Assembly: GCF_900198195.1 (NCBI RefSeq) | Contig: NZ_LT899436.1 | Coordinates: forward strand, 4,550,880 to 4,614,879 | Length of the DNA stretch: 64,000 nucleotides | Origin: Tenacibaculum jejuense | GTDB lineage: Bacteria; Bacteroidota; Bacteroidia; Flavobacteriales; Flavobacteriaceae | Direction of reading: 5' to 3' | Shown here: piece by piece, positions 27,911 through 49,349 of the stretch | Layout: each line of letters starts with the position of its first letter | How positions within the stretch are numbered: the first letter of the stretch is position 1 | Made by a program: the position numbers and the translations under genes | Notes under the pieces: generated by a model | Databases searched by the model: none | What the model saw: only the letters and a program-made list of their open reading frames with translations | Told to the model about the DNA's origin: nothing

Positions 27911-28879
27911 ATGGAAATGATTAAAAAACATATCACCGAAACAATTGTTCATTTACTTTTTTGGACACTCTTTTGTTTTATTTCCCTATTTGTTTTTTCA
28001 CAATACTATTGGTCTGAAAATCCTTTTTTACAATATGTATTTATACTATTAATTATAGTTTATACGAATCATTTCTTTTTGCTTCCTTTCTTTGTAAAGC
28101 GAAAATGGTATTTGTTATATGCTATACTTTTTGCTTCAGTTTCTTTCTTTGCAACACAATTTTACTGTAACGTATTTACTTCTTGTGGCTGCACTATAAT
28201 GAAATGTTTAAGTAATTATTTATGGCAAACTATTGTTCCACTTATCTTTTTTTCTTTTATATGGTTGTTATTTAAATATTTAAGCAAAGAAGAAGAAATT
28301 CGTAAAGCGCAAGAAGAGAAAACTGCTATGGAGTTAAAGTTTTTAAAATCTCAAATTAATCCACATGTACTTTTTAATAACTTAAATACAGTATATGCTT
28401 ACGCCATAGAAAAACCTGAAGAAACTCCAGATTTGATTTTAAAATTATCTGAGAATTTAAAGCATGTTCTGTACGAAAGTAATGCTGATTACATTCCTTT
28501 GGAAAAAGAATTAAATTATATTGATAATTATATTGCATTTCAAAAAATTAGAACAGAAGGAATTAAAAAGGTGTACTACAAAAAATCAATACATTCTTCT
28601 CAATACACAATTGCTCCGTTGCTATTAATTACACTAATAGAAAATGCTTTTAAGCATAGTACAATAAATAGCGATATTCATATTACTATTGATGTTAATG
28701 AAGGAAACTTAATTTGTACTTGTGAAAACGAGTATAAAACTTCTGAAGACAAAGTAAATCAAAGTATTGGATTACAAAATATGGAGAAACGATTACATCT
28801 TCTATATGAAAACCGTTACAGTTTAAAAATAGATAAATCGAAAACATATTTTGTTTCTTTAAAATTAAAGTTGGTATGA
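27911..28879 (+). CDS. LytS-type sensor histidine kinase
   Basis: 322 aa. Four transmembrane helices at ~12-130, a linker coil, then the His_kinase (PF06580) domain with phospho-acceptor His ~149 in SQINPHVLFNNLN, and an ATPase domain with LITLIENAFKHS and GLQNMEKRL. No periplasmic sensor domain. The stop overlaps the start of the LytTR regulator by 4 bp (ATGA), so the two are translationally coupled. Confidence 0.9.
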   Translation: MEMIKKHITETIVHLLFWTLFCFISLFVFSQYYWSENPFLQYVFILLIIVYTNHFFLLPFFVKRKWYLLYAILFASVSFFATQFYCNVFTSCGCTIMKCLSNYLWQTIVPLIFFSFIWLLFKYLSKEEEIRKAQEEKTAMELKFLKSQINPHVLFNNLNTVYAYAIEKPEETPDLILKLSENLKHVLYESNADYIPLEKELNYIDNYIAFQKIRTEGIKKVYYKKSIHSSQYTIAPLLLITLIENAFKHSTINSDIHITIDVNEGNLICTCENEYKTSEDKVNQSIGLQNMEKRLHLLYENRYSLKIDKSKTYFVSLKLKLV

Positions 28880-29562
28880 TTACATGTATTATTATTGAAG
28901 ATGAACTTCCAGCTCAGAAGGTTTTAAAGAGTTTTTTAAACAAAACATTAAACATAGAATTATTAGCTAGTTTTCAAACAGCAAAAGAAGCTCACCGTTT
29001 TTTACAAACAAATACTGTCGACTTTGTTTTCTTAGATATAAACTTACCTGATATTATGGGAATTGATTTTATGAAAACGCTAATCAATCCACCTTTTATA
29101 ATTATCACTACAGCGTATCCAGATTATGCTTTAGATAGTTTTGATTTAGAAACTATTGTAGATTATTTAGTAAAACCTTTTTCTTTCGATCGGTTTTTAA
29201 AAGCGATTCGTAAAATAGAACAACGCGTAAAACAAATAGAAACAGAACCAAATGACTGTATATTTTTAAATATCGATAAAACTTTACATAAAGTTTTACT
29301 TCATGAGATATTATATGTAGAGTCAGACAGAAATTACTTAACCTTTATAACTCACGAAAAGAAATACGTTTTTATAGATTCTTTAAAAAATTGGATTACC
29401 AAACTTCCTCAACATTTTGTTCAAATTCACAAATCATATATTGTCAATTTAAATCACATCGATAAAATAGCCGGAAACGAAATTCATATCGGTAAAATTT
29501 GTATACCGGTAGGAAGAACTTTTAAATCAAATTTCATGATGAAATTTAATGCTGAAAATTGA
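28876..29562 (+). CDS. LytTR-family response regulator
   Basis: 228 aa. Receiver domain with acidic pocket EDE at 9-11, phospho-acceptor Asp ~54 in VFLDINLPD and Lys in LVKPFSFD. A LytTR DNA-binding domain occupies ~130-225 (LHEILYVESDRNYLTF, QIHKSYIVNLNHIDKI, IPVGRTFK). LytTR proteins bind two ~9-bp direct repeats about 22 bp apart. Sites with this geometry occur nearby at 30471-31416, so it is one candidate regulator of those sites. Confidence 0.92.
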   Translation: MITCIIIEDELPAQKVLKSFLNKTLNIELLASFQTAKEAHRFLQTNTVDFVFLDINLPDIMGIDFMKTLINPPFIIITTAYPDYALDSFDLETIVDYLVKPFSFDRFLKAIRKIEQRVKQIETEPNDCIFLNIDKTLHKVLLHEILYVESDRNYLTFITHEKKYVFIDSLKNWITKLPQHFVQIHKSYIVNLNHIDKIAGNEIHIGKICIPVGRTFKSNFMMKFNAEN

Positions 29563-46154: not shown

Positions 46155-46793
46155 TTACTTACCATTAAACTCATTCATAGTATTTGAAATTCCAGCATTT
46201 ATAAACGATGTAATCGCGTTTACACTTTTTGGTATTCTCTCTATAAGCTGACTCTCTTCTTCATCGCTCCATTGTCCTAAAACGAAGTCTACTTGTCTTC
46301 CTTTTTTATATTCTGAACCTACACCAAAACGGAATCTAGGATAAGAACCTGTATTTAATTTTTCTTGAATATCCTTTAAACCATTGTGTCCACCTGCGCT
46401 ACCTCTACTTTTTATTCTTAGTTTTCCAAAATCTATATTCAAATCATCCGTAATAATTAATACATTTTCAATTTGAATATTTTCTTTCTTCATCCAGTAC
46501 AAAACAGCTTTTCCACTTAAATTCATATAAGTGTTTGGTTTTAATACAAAAACAGTTTTTCCTTTTACTTTTAATTGTGCTAAATCACCTAATTTCTCTG
46601 TAGAAAAAGAAGCTTCGTTTTCTTTTACAAAAGCATCTACAATTTTAAAGCCTATATTATGTCTAGTATTATCATACTTTTCACCAATATTTCCTAGACC
46701 TACAATTAAAAATTTCTTCATAATATCTTCTTCTGATTCTTGTTTTTGGCCAAAAATTCTACCAACTAAGGAAAGAAAATTCATCATAAACAT
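46155..46793 (-). CDS. pth: Peptidyl-tRNA hydrolase
   Basis: 212 aa. The conserved core starts at Met25 (MKKFLIVGLGNIG, ATG near 46721), with catalytic His in YDNTRHNIGF, Asn in KPNTYMNLSG and GSAGGHNGLKDIQEKL. The extra N-terminal 24 residues (MFMMNFLSLVGRIFG...) are usual in flavobacterial Pth. A -7 box TAGATTTG (46806-46813) lies 13 bp upstream. Recycles peptidyl-tRNAs. Confidence 0.93.
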   Translation of the reverse strand: MFMMNFLSLVGRIFGQKQESEEDIMKKFLIVGLGNIGEKYDNTRHNIGFKIVDAFVKENEASFSTEKLGDLAQLKVKGKTVFVLKPNTYMNLSGKAVLYWMKKENIQIENVLIITDDLNIDFGKLRIKSRGSAGGHNGLKDIQEKLNTGSYPRFRFGVGSEYKKGRQVDFVLGQWSDEEESQLIERIPKSVNAITSFINAGISNTMNEFNGK

Positions 46794-46844: not shown

Positions 46845-46894
46845 GATATTTATCTATAGTCAAATATTTATCAACTTACATAAAGTTCCGTTCA

Positions 46895-46936
46895 TCGATA
46901 ATTCAAAAGATCAATCTTCCATTTTTCCTAATTTTA
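46895..46936 (+). promoter_or_regulatory. Control region of small-RNA unit 1
   Basis: TCGATA at 46895-46900 inside TTCATCGATAATT, then exactly 34 nt (start to start) to the -7-like box TAATTTTA at 46929-46936. The same arrangement repeats in units 2-4. Confidence 0.65.
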
Positions 46937-46942
46937 CAGTGT

Positions 46943-47048
46943 TAGTTAGTATTTCATATAAACAAAATATAGATAATAATAGCTCGGGGGGGAGTTATCA
47001 TTTATAAACAAAGAAGTCACCTTTATTACTGAGGTGACTTCTTTGTTT
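46943..47048 (+). ncRNA. Candidate small RNA with G-rich loop, unit 1
   Basis: An ~105-nt transcript predicted from the -7 box to the terminator CAAAGAAGTCACCT/AGGTGACTTCTTTG (47006-47048). Before the terminator, ATAGCT and AGTTAT pair with one wobble and present CGGGGGGG as the loop (46977-46999 region). No open frame with coding character. Units 1 and 2 are over 90% alike; the G-loop hairpin and terminator are also present, with different stems, in units 3 and 4. Start site is estimated. Confidence 0.7.
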
Positions 47049-47128
47049 ACTACTATTTTTAATCTATGATTCAAATATAATCTTTATCCTAAATTCAATG
47101 TTTTCAAACTACATATAACTACGATTCA

Positions 47129-47170
47129 TCGATAATTTAAAAGATCAATCTTCTCTTTTTCCTAATTTTA
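47129..47170 (+). promoter_or_regulatory. Control region of small-RNA unit 2
   Basis: TCGATA at 47129-47134 and -7-like TAATTTTA at 47163-47170, 34 nt apart. Confidence 0.65.
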
Positions 47171-47176
47171 CAGTGT

Positions 47177-47282
47177 TAGTTAGTATTTCATATAAACAAA
47201 ATATAGATAATAATAGCTCGGGGGGGCGTTATCATTTATAATCAAAGAAGTCACCTTTATTACTGAGGTGACTTCTTTGTTT
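47177..47282 (+). ncRNA. Candidate small RNA with G-rich loop, unit 2
   Basis: Near-duplicate of unit 1. The hairpin ATAGC/GTTAT carries seven G; one base after the G-run differs from unit 1 (C for A) and shortens the stem. The terminator CAAAGAAGTCACCT/AGGTGACTTCTTTG is identical. Confidence 0.7.
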
Positions 47283-47363
47283 ACTACTATTTTTATCTAT
47301 GATTCAACAATAATTCTTCATCTCTAAATTCAATGTTTTCAAACTACATATAACTGCTATTCA

Positions 47364-47405
47364 TCGATAATTTTAAACTTAGAAAAACAATCATTCATAA
47401 TTTTG
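47364..47405 (+). promoter_or_regulatory. Control region of small-RNA unit 3
   Basis: TCGATA at 47364-47369 and TAATTTTG at 47398-47405, a perfect TAnnTTTG box, 34 nt apart. Confidence 0.7.
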
Positions 47406-47411
47406 ATATAT

Positions 47412-47489
47412 ACTATAAATAGTATGATTCGAAGGGGGATTATACAGATTATAGTGCTTTGCCACCTTAGTTAATAGGTGGCATTTTTA
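47412..47489 (+). ncRNA. Candidate small RNA with G-rich loop, unit 3
   Basis: About 78 nt. GTATGAT and ATTATAC pair (one G-U) around TCGAAGGGGG, then the terminator GCCACCT/AGGTGGC with T-run (47459-47489). Stem sequences differ from unit 1 while pairing and the G-run remain: compensatory evidence for the hairpin. Confidence 0.7.
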
Positions 47490-47631
47490 TTTCTAATAAA
47501 CTATTTGTGAAACAAAATAAGTAACTAAATCTTATATAAAACAAAGAGTAGCACGTTAGCAATTAGAAAAATCTATTTTTTATCGTTAATCTACATTGAA
47601 ACCTTTATGAACTCTATAAAATTACCATTCG

Positions 47632-47673
47632 TCGATAGTTAAAACAAAAAAAGTAGAATTAATAGTAAATTTA
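47632..47673 (+). promoter_or_regulatory. Control region of small-RNA unit 4
   Basis: TCGATA at 47632-47637 and -7-like TAAATTTA at 47666-47673, 34 nt apart; the sequence between has diverged from the other units. Confidence 0.6.
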
Positions 47674-47679
47674 AAGTGG

Positions 47680-47787
47680 AAAGAAAGTAGTAAATGAGTT
47701 TCTGAATAACAAAATTTAAGGTTTATAGTTCGGGGGGACTATAGTTATTTAGACACATAAAGCCGTCTCAATGAGACGGCTTTTTAT
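47680..47787 (+). ncRNA. Candidate small RNA with G-rich loop, unit 4
   Basis: About 108 nt. TATAGT and ACTATA pair around TCGGGGGG, then the terminator AGCCGTCTC/GAGACGGCT with T-run (47761-47790), which can also end the converging aldehyde dehydrogenase transcript. The 5' half is unrelated to the other units. Confidence 0.7.
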
Positions 47788-47807
47788 TTTTTCAATATCT
47801 TTTTATA

Positions 47808-49349
47808 CTATAAATCGAACTTAATTCCTTGTGCTAAAGGTAATTCTGTAGTATAATTAATTGTATTTGTTTGACGACGCATATAAATTTTCCAAGCATC
47901 TGAACCAGATTCTCTTCCTCCTCCAGTTTCTTTCTCACCACCAAAAGCTCCACCAATTTCAGCTCCAGAAGTTCCTATGTTTACATTTGCAATACCACAA
48001 TCTGATCCAGCGTGCGATAAGAAACGTTCAGCTTCACGCAAATTGTTGGTCATAATTGCAGAAGATAAACCTTGTGCAACACCATTTTGCAAATTAATTG
48101 CATTCTCTACATCACCTGAATACTTTAATAAATATAAAACTGGAGCAAATGTTTCATGTTGAACGATTTCATAATCATTTGCAGCTTCTGCAATAGCAGG
48201 TTTTACATAACAACCACTTTCATATCCTTCACCTTCTAAAACTCCTCCTTCTACAATAATGTTTCCACCTTCAGCTACAACTTTCTCTAAAGCTTTGTTA
48301 TACATTGCAACTGCATCTTTATCGATTAACGGTCCCACATGATTGTTTTCATCTAAAGGATTACCAATACGTAATTGTTTATAAGCATCTACAACTGCAT
48401 TTTTTACTTTATCGTAAATAGAATCATGAATAATTAATCTTCGTGTAGAAGTACAACGTTGTCCTGCTGTTCCTACAGCTCCAAAAACAGCTCCAATTAC
48501 TGTCATTTTAATATCAGCATCCGGAGTAACAATAATTGCATTATTTCCTCCTAATTCTAATAAACTTTTACCTAAACGACCTGCAACTTCACTAGCAACA
48601 ATTTTACCCATACGAGTAGAACCTGTAGCAGAAACTAAAGGAATTCTAGTATCTTTAGAAATAAACTCTCCAACTACATAATCTCCATTTACTAAACAAG
48701 AAATTCCTTCTGGTAAATTGTTTTCTTGTAAAACCTCAGTAATTATGTTCTGACAAGCTACACCACATAATGGAGTTTTCTCAGAAGGTTTCCAAACACA
48801 AACATCACCACAAATCCAAGCTAAAGCTGTGTTCCAAGACCAAACAGCTACTGGAAAGTTAAATGCAGAAATAATTCCTACAACTCCTAACGGATGATAT
48901 TGTTCATACATTCTATGTCCTGGTCTTTCAGAATGCATTGTTAACCCATGTAACTGACGCGATAATCCGACAGCAAAATCACAGATATCAATCATTTCTT
49001 GAACCTCACCTAAACCTTCTTGGTAACTTTTACCCATTTCATAAGAAACTAATTTACCTAAAGCTTCTTTCTTTTCTCTCAATTTCTCTCCAAACTGACG
49101 TACAATTTCACCACGTTGAGGAGCTGGCATTACTCTCCAAGTTTTAAATGCTTCAGTAGCGGCAGTCATTACATTCTCATAATCTTCTTTAGTAGAAGCT
49201 TTTACTTTAGCAATTAGTTTTCCATCTACTGGAGAATAACTTTCAATAAGTTCTCCATTAGAAAACCACTTAGAACCTGTAGATGTTCCTTCATTTATAT
49301 CATTAACCCCTAAGGTTTTTAATGCTTCTTTAATACCAAAATCTGTCAT
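47808..49349 (-). CDS. Aldehyde dehydrogenase, ALDH7 (aminoadipic semialdehyde type)
   Basis: 513 aa. Catalytic Cys in GTAGQRCTSTRRL, general-base Glu in LELGGNNAI, cofactor loop SATGSTRMGKIV. The opening GIKEALKTLGVND and NIGTSGAEIGGAFGGEKETG fit the ALDH7A1/AmaB group, which oxidises 2-aminoadipate 6-semialdehyde in lysine breakdown using NAD+. Single gene. Confidence 0.88.
   Translation of the reverse strand: MTDFGIKEALKTLGVNDINEGTSTGSKWFSNGELIESYSPVDGKLIAKVKASTKEDYENVMTAATEAFKTWRVMPAPQRGEIVRQFGEKLREKKEALGKLVSYEMGKSYQEGLGEVQEMIDICDFAVGLSRQLHGLTMHSERPGHRMYEQYHPLGVVGIISAFNFPVAVWSWNTALAWICGDVCVWKPSEKTPLCGVACQNIITEVLQENNLPEGISCLVNGDYVVGEFISKDTRIPLVSATGSTRMGKIVASEVAGRLGKSLLELGGNNAIIVTPDADIKMTVIGAVFGAVGTAGQRCTSTRRLIIHDSIYDKVKNAVVDAYKQLRIGNPLDENNHVGPLIDKDAVAMYNKALEKVVAEGGNIIVEGGVLEGEGYESGCYVKPAIAEAANDYEIVQHETFAPVLYLLKYSGDVENAINLQNGVAQGLSSAIMTNNLREAERFLSHAGSDCGIANVNIGTSGAEIGGAFGGEKETGGGRESGSDAWKIYMRRQTNTINYTTELPLAQGIKFDL

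Follow-up and report, generated by a model that had tools for sequence, protein, structure and literature searches.

What do the four tandem units between pth and an aldehyde dehydrogenase gene of Tenacibaculum jejuense encode, what would switch them on, and through which part would their products act? The units lie on the plus strand, with both neighbouring genes on the minus strand, inside a stretch of 64,000 nucleotides that was analysed as a whole and is called the window below. As far as the DNA itself can tell, each of them is very probably a small-RNA gene with its own promoter and terminator (Table 1). Both the type of -7 box and the gene content fit a Flavobacteriaceae-like member of the Bacteroidota.

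Table 1. Features of the array and of its flanking genes, in positions of the window.
Feature	Position	Strand	Remarks
Flanking gene pth	46155..46793	-	Outside the array; marker of the conserved locus, same neighbour in G326 and G276
Unit 1 regulator box CCGTTCATCGATAATT, TCGATA at 46895	46888..46903	+	8/9 to AlgR core
Unit 1 -7 box TAATTTTA, 34 nt past TCGATA	46929..46936	+	
Unit 1 predicted small RNA	46941..47048	+	Assumed start: 12 nt from the first base of the -7 box
Unit 1 G-loop hairpin, G run 46986-46992	46968..47010	+	Model R2, 33.6 bits (training-set member)
Unit 1 intrinsic terminator	47005..47049	+	Terminator scan
Unit 2 regulator box, TCGATA at 47129	47122..47137	+	
Unit 2 -7 box TAATTTTA	47163..47170	+	
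Unit 2 predicted small RNA and its terminator; tandem copy of unit 1	47175..47282	+	
Unit 2 G-loop hairpin, G run 47220-47226	47202..47242	+	Model R2, 32.0 bits (training-set member)
Unit 3 regulator box, TCGATA at 47364	47357..47372	+	
Unit 3 -7 box TAATTTTG	47398..47405	+	
Unit 3 predicted small RNA	47410..47492	+	
Unit 3 two-part G-loop hairpin, G run 47434-47438	47411..47456	+	Missed by R2 at E 0.05
Unit 3 intrinsic terminator	47460..47483	+	Terminator scan
Unit 4 regulator box CCATTCGTCGATAGTT, TCGATA at 47632	47625..47640	+	8/9 to AlgR core
Unit 4 -7 box TAAATTTA	47666..47673	+	
Unit 4 predicted small RNA	47678..47792	+	
Unit 4 G-loop hairpin, G run 47732-47737	47714..47754	+	Model R2, 40 bits (training-set member)
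Unit 4 intrinsic terminator	47759..47783	+	Terminator scan
Flanking gene L-piperidine-6-carboxylate dehydrogenase	47808..49349	-	Outside the array; marker of the conserved locus, same neighbour in G326 and G276

The preliminary description of this locus had placed TCGATA exactly 34 nt before a -7 box in every unit, and this distance to TANNTTT(A/G) is indeed found in all four. The combination of box, -7 box and G run is unique to the array: the window has 57 TCGATA on its two strands, and only those of the four units have both partners. TANNTTT at +34 accompanies five of them (the units and position 666), and a run of at least five G within 34-110 nt likewise five (the units and 42604 on the minus strand). 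Scanning the whole window for box plus -7 box returned the four units only. The rarity of G runs holds as well, as the window contains seven runs of at least five G or C when read on the plus strand, four of which are those of the units, with lengths of 7, 7, 5 and 6 in units 1 to 4. In each unit the run caps a two-part hairpin, and the folding energies of the four G-hairpins correspond to z values of -2.4, -3.0, -4.0 and -3.7, respectively, relative to Markov shuffles. Intrinsic terminators, also part of the original claim, were recovered three times between 46800 and 47850, against 0.2 expected in shuffles; the terminator of unit 2 is nearly identical to that of unit 1 but absent from the list produced by the scan.

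Two other statements required adjustment. The RNAs had been estimated at 78-108 nt; with a start assumed 12 nt after the beginning of the -7 box, as was done for all lengths, 108, 108, 83 and 115 nt are predicted for units 1 to 4, so that unit 4 exceeds the range. Moreover, four units are present, but they are not four independent ones. Unit 2 is 94% identical to unit 1 over 200 nt and is taken as its recent tandem copy, and the array therefore counts as three independent units.

That the units represent a small-RNA family with homologous arrays in relatives, as had been proposed, is borne out by two genomes of the genus, G326 and G276, and by further genus genomes discussed below. A DNA search with unit 1 in 146 genus genomes gave one long outside match, in G326 (80% over 147 of 201 nt), where three units occupy the same locus and the pth and dehydrogenase neighbours are kept. 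G276 also has three units at this locus, with a promoter-model match of only 18.6 bits. By order and sequence, the three units of both relatives correspond to units 1, 3 and 4; unit 2 was found only here. Across the ten units of the three genomes, the distance from box to -7 box is 34 nt in nine cases and 33 nt in one, and it is retained in unit 3 of G326 and G276, where the box is degenerate. Judged by eye, the terminators of the relatives vary in sequence but are constantly present; the stems vary too, while the G-loop persists. At E <= 1 the promoter model (R1) has matches in every one of the 166 genus genomes, and evidence from it was restricted to seven matches of at least 29 bits (G000, G326) and to inspected loci, G276 included. 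Promoter and hairpin were aligned apart, because MAFFT misaligned full-length units. Plain pattern searches yielded candidates that were set aside: one across 199 family genomes had matches in 19, which look like chance from L033, the locus inspected outside the own genome, and a contig-wide scan gave 62 matches across many phyla, judged from record titles alone.

Beyond these arrays, the window units belong to an RNA family that is spread through the genus and has no model in Rfam 15. Through the promoter model, a box was located in G307 (L162) that directly follows the gene of a LytTR response regulator and has a G-loop hairpin and a terminator downstream of it. This regulator has a match at E <= 1e-60 in 115 of 166 genus genomes, and among the 30 best loci of that search a G-loop hairpin stands 107-168 nt behind the regulator gene in 25, with none behind it in the other five (L316, L317, L327, L329, L335). 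A terminator was called by script in 24 of the 25 hairpin loci. By a criterion written after the loci had been viewed, (A/T)CGA lies 33-34 nt before TnnnTTT(G/A) in 20 of them (reverse-strand control, 0/25), and a looser box pattern matched in 16. An Hpt gene adjoins the regulator gene wherever the neighbours were inspected (G307, G282, G000, L373, L376, L384, L385; Pfam was run on two of these loci), and Pfam confirmed the LytTR genes beside the RNAs, which constitutes genetic linkage.

A covariance model (R2) was built from 36 copies, 26 of them regulator-linked and ten from the arrays; L335, a chance G run on a terminator, was dropped from the hairpin alignment, and L307 was dropped as a near-duplicate of L306. 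R2 matches 42 of 166 genus genomes at E <= 1e-3, of which 19 are outside the training set, and under the stricter filters of this run it misses five of 28 training genomes (G307, G223, G300, G326, G276). Units 1, 2 and 4 match R2 as members of its training set and unit 3 does not; the family traits seen in the window are the -7 box and terminator, in all four units, and the G-loop hairpin. Eleven of 20 fetched R2 regions adjoin accC- or Lrp-like genes, with or without response-regulator, Hpt and LytTR genes (names by eye). Another four (L367, L368, L369, L372) are dispersed sets of two to three copies beside a dipeptidase-like gene, and in three of these a cysteine-synthase-like gene, again named by eye, flanks the other side. 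Arrays distant from a regulator, like that of the window, therefore occur elsewhere in the genus.

Compensatory change in the stems, which had been read from the units themselves, is upheld only in part. In the 36-row alignment, the 12 pairs of the proposed hairpin are standard in 83.6% of cases, compared with 77.7% in shuffles (0/500 as high), and this share falls to 37-53% when the pairing is slid. The covariation score is 0.328 versus 0.244 shuffled (1/500 as high), and cells changed on both sides number 33 versus 12.7 (0/500). Neither doubly changed pairs (5 vs 5.3) nor pair types (19 vs 20.6) rise above shuffles, and RNAalifold predicted no common structure on the same alignment. The aligned stems thus offer evidence that we regard as real but partial. 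The best-conserved part of the hairpin alignment is the loop, and the 5' ends vary across the genus.

As to what switches the units on, we infer with good support that a response regulator of the Hpt/LytTR type uses the box as its promoter-proximal half-site. According to two papers on such promoters, the AlgR core is the 9-mer CCGTTCGTC, and the repeats bound by most LytTR regulators are 9-11 nt long with spacers of 11-13 nt (PMC4064291, PMC4847170). Unit 1 (CCGTTCATC) and unit 4 (CCATTCGTC) match the core at 8/9, and the boxes of units 2 and 3 at only 6/9. This resemblance alone is weak, because 24 nine-mers of the whole window match at 7/9 or better. Each unit has one clear half-site, the second being degenerate by eye.

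A firmer connection comes from a family-wide relative, the type A regulator (G000:C1:3140609-3141325, minus strand), whose gene comes after genes for a PAS histidine kinase and an Hpt protein. At E <= 1e-50 this regulator is matched in 83 of 199 genomes, the own genome included. The box behind the type A gene and that of unit 3 in the same genome have CTATTCATCGA in common. In other genera, a strict box, written as a pattern after the loci had been viewed, lies within 350 nt behind the type A gene in 13 of the 29 best loci, compared with a resampled mean of 0.26 and maximum of 3 (500 resamplings) and with 1/29 on the reverse strand. Nine of these 13 loci have a second half-site 21-22 bp further on (9/29 with LytTR repeat spacing), and in every one of the nine a -7 box follows after another 33-34 nt. 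Since this distance is also that of the window, it provides the strongest link between the box and LytTR regulators. The single regulator first proposed to act through the box is better described as one regulator type, probably LytTR. LytTR control is the best-supported input of the small RNAs, and the promoter logic, as read from these comparisons, can be considered well supported.

What follows the box in other genera seems by eye to be mostly a protein gene rather than a small RNA, and genes for secreted-looking proteins seem to lie downstream in L278, L279, L282, L283, L294, L297-L299 and others of L277-L305. The own genome has 37 LytTR matches. A LytTR operon under the same box and -7 box was sought in 36 own-genome LytTR loci and none was found: no locus came near the scores of the units (27.9-36.3), and a single weak match of 14.4 occurred at L236. 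The window itself has, at 27911-29562 and 17 kb from the array, genes for a kinase-like protein and a LytTR response regulator (Pfam). In G282 (L163, about 1500-2612), ATTCGTCGATT stands 34 nt before TATTTTTG, ahead of a LytS-like kinase gene and then a response-regulator gene; these genes are a possible protein-coding target of the same box type.

About 3.3 kb downstream of the type A gene lies another array, with some ten small-RNA-like units in tandem (L271, G000:C1:3133000-3148000). These have box-like sites, -7 boxes TATCTTTG or TATTTTTG and starts like AAGTGTAAATAAG, and their terminators carry C-rich loops (GACCCCAATT, CTCCCAACTG). Judged by eye, the 34-nt geometry of the window box is mostly missing from this array. 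Counterparts exist in G326 (L272) and G276 (L273), and L272, at the end of contig G326:C30, shows a tandem GTAA run at a predicted RNA start (beginning AGTGTTGAAAGTAAGTAAG).

The remaining question is which part of the RNAs would act. The loop typical of the genus is GUUGGGGGAU, and the window units carry loops like UUCGGGGGG. The exact 10-mer ATCCCCCAAC, which is complementary to GUUGGGGGAU, was counted 116 times in 40 genomes, and its reversed control 11 times. Already known copies account for 42 of the 116 loop 10-mers, and the other 74 divide into 33 in open frames and 41 between genes. A stem score of at least 6 around the loop was obtained for 20 of the 41 intergenic sites; when the flanks were swapped 500 times, the mean was 1.8 sites and the maximum 6. 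Of the 33 sites in open frames, three reached this score. Five of the 74 (two in L396 and one each in L422, L426 and L463) look by eye like more regulator-linked copies, and many remaining sites have a -7 box before and a terminator after them. Some sites lie beside membrane LytTR proteins (L393, L415 and one of two sites in L437; Pfam for L415 and L437), others beside another LytTR response regulator (L419, L432, L448, L462; Pfam for L419 and L448), and all four of the latter loci show TTTAGAACATT-like repeats 20-21 bp apart. Among the sequences examined, the own genome holds one further loop candidate at about 4518528 on the minus strand (L227). Strong GUUGGGGGAU-loop hairpins that lack a scripted terminator also occur 48-50 nt upstream of a thioredoxin-like gene (L405, L460) and 164-187 nt upstream of a lipoprotein-like gene (L388, L400).

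The opposite orientation is represented too. Apparent RNAs in L398, L401, L418, L431, L464, L450 and L455 contain one or two copies of AUCCCCCAAC, which is exactly complementary to the genus G-loop. Their sites include one locus in two species (L398, L401), one locus in three species (L418, L431, L464) and L450, all with an upstream -7 box; terminators were found by script in L398, L401 and L464 and by eye in L418, L431 and L450. Together with the genus loop these RNAs form strong predicted duplexes, but the sites had been picked for complementarity. Three of four tested C-rich stretches of the type A array beat most shuffles when paired with the genus loop (3, 5 and 14 of 300 shuffles as good), while the fourth does not (119 of 300); against unit 4, the same four barely exceed shuffles (25-118 of 300 equally good). 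The analysis identified no mRNA with a conserved C-rich target. At G000:C1:3872582-3873794, TTGATCGATAGTT recurs five times on the minus strand in 300-base steps and is probably a repeat unit.

Taking these observations together, we think it probable that the array encodes sibling small RNAs that are driven by a LytTR regulator and act by base pairing through the G-loop. The four RNAs would be made when the LytTR/Hpt relay is active, because the box is read as a LytTR half-site. The G-loop would be the active part, a step with moderate support, pairing loop-to-loop or loop-to-single-strand with C-rich RNAs, some of which look like small RNAs themselves; the multiple copies would raise the dose. 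More tentatively, a two-sided network may be envisaged, in which several LytTR regulators each drive a small RNA with the same G-loop on interchangeable stems, other small RNAs present the exact C-loop, and phosphorelay signals converge on one loop-loop code.

A fixed loop on changing stems fits base pairing and protein titration alike. Titration of the Gac/Rsm kind, in which an RNA-binding protein would recognise the G-loops and be drawn by the regulator-driven RNAs away from other RNAs with the same loop, would also agree with the occurrence of this loop between genes and close upstream of the thioredoxin-like (L405, L460) and lipoprotein-like (L388, L400) genes, whose names were assigned by eye, and such systems are known to work with multi-copy RNAs under response-regulator control. 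Titration has, however, no need of exact 10-nt loop complements, and it is because other apparent RNAs carry them that pairing is preferred and titration is considered rather unlikely; to our knowledge, CsrA is absent from these bacteria. Less likely still is that the small RNAs are real but work through a different region, such as the 5' end with repeats like GUUAGUUAGUA or GAAAGAAAGUAGUAA, and that the G-loop serves chiefly for stability: in units 1, 2 and 4 the 5' ends resemble by eye those of the type A array (AAGTGTAAGTAAGTAG), but genus-wide it is the loop that is most conserved and the 5' ends that vary. A non-functional repeat, be it a mobile hairpin or a tandem duplication devoid of an RNA role, would explain multi-copy, intergenic, hairpin-shaped units and the recent duplication of units 1 and 2, but it is highly improbable given that loop, promoter and spacing are kept despite divergent stems and terminators, and a mobile repeat would be expected to retain its stem as well.

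Should one LytTR branch, or perhaps several, drive small RNAs with a shared loop, LytTR systems would gain a testable output, and a candidate for a general pairing (or protein-binding) code would emerge in Bacteroidota. Within this phylum, Bacteroides is reported to have no obvious homologue of Hfq or ProQ (PMC7366714). Kinship to Flavo-1 or another Rfam family was not recovered, as Rfam 15, Flavo-1 included, gave no gathering-threshold match in the window, in eight related loci or in 20 loop-bearing loci; a permissive mode returned only sub-threshold matches, the best of them on terminators. No description of this RNA family was found in the literature searched, which left supplements and most subscription papers outside its scope, so that an earlier description is possible. 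A recurring family absent from Rfam 15 would point to an RNA-based signalling circuit.

Among known systems, Gac/Rsm and Csr also use multi-copy RNAs that are driven by a response regulator and display a short G-containing motif in hairpin loops. Their motif is GGA, whereas that of the present family is GUUGGGGGAU or UUCGGGGGG. The csRNAs of the streptococcal CiaR regulon, as described in the available portions of PMC3091779 and PMC8186281, are likewise several sibling small RNAs with their own promoters and a response-regulator site. Several copies and own promoters are seen in the window by sequence, and a common regulator would complete the likeness. CiaR belongs to another regulator class and phylum, and the present family differs further in its tandem copies and in a G-rich loop whose stems change. 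Rfp18 of Flavobacterium psychrophilum (PMC9723704), compared by description only and from the part of the paper at hand, is similarly a structured flavobacterial small RNA conserved beyond its species. Finally, the AlgR/LytTR promoters, so far as the excerpts of PMC4064291 and PMC4847170 cover them, share with the present family a CCGTTCGTC-like 9-mer and, in the related loci, repeats about 21 bp apart; the differences are a degenerate second repeat in the window units and outputs that here appear to be small RNAs.
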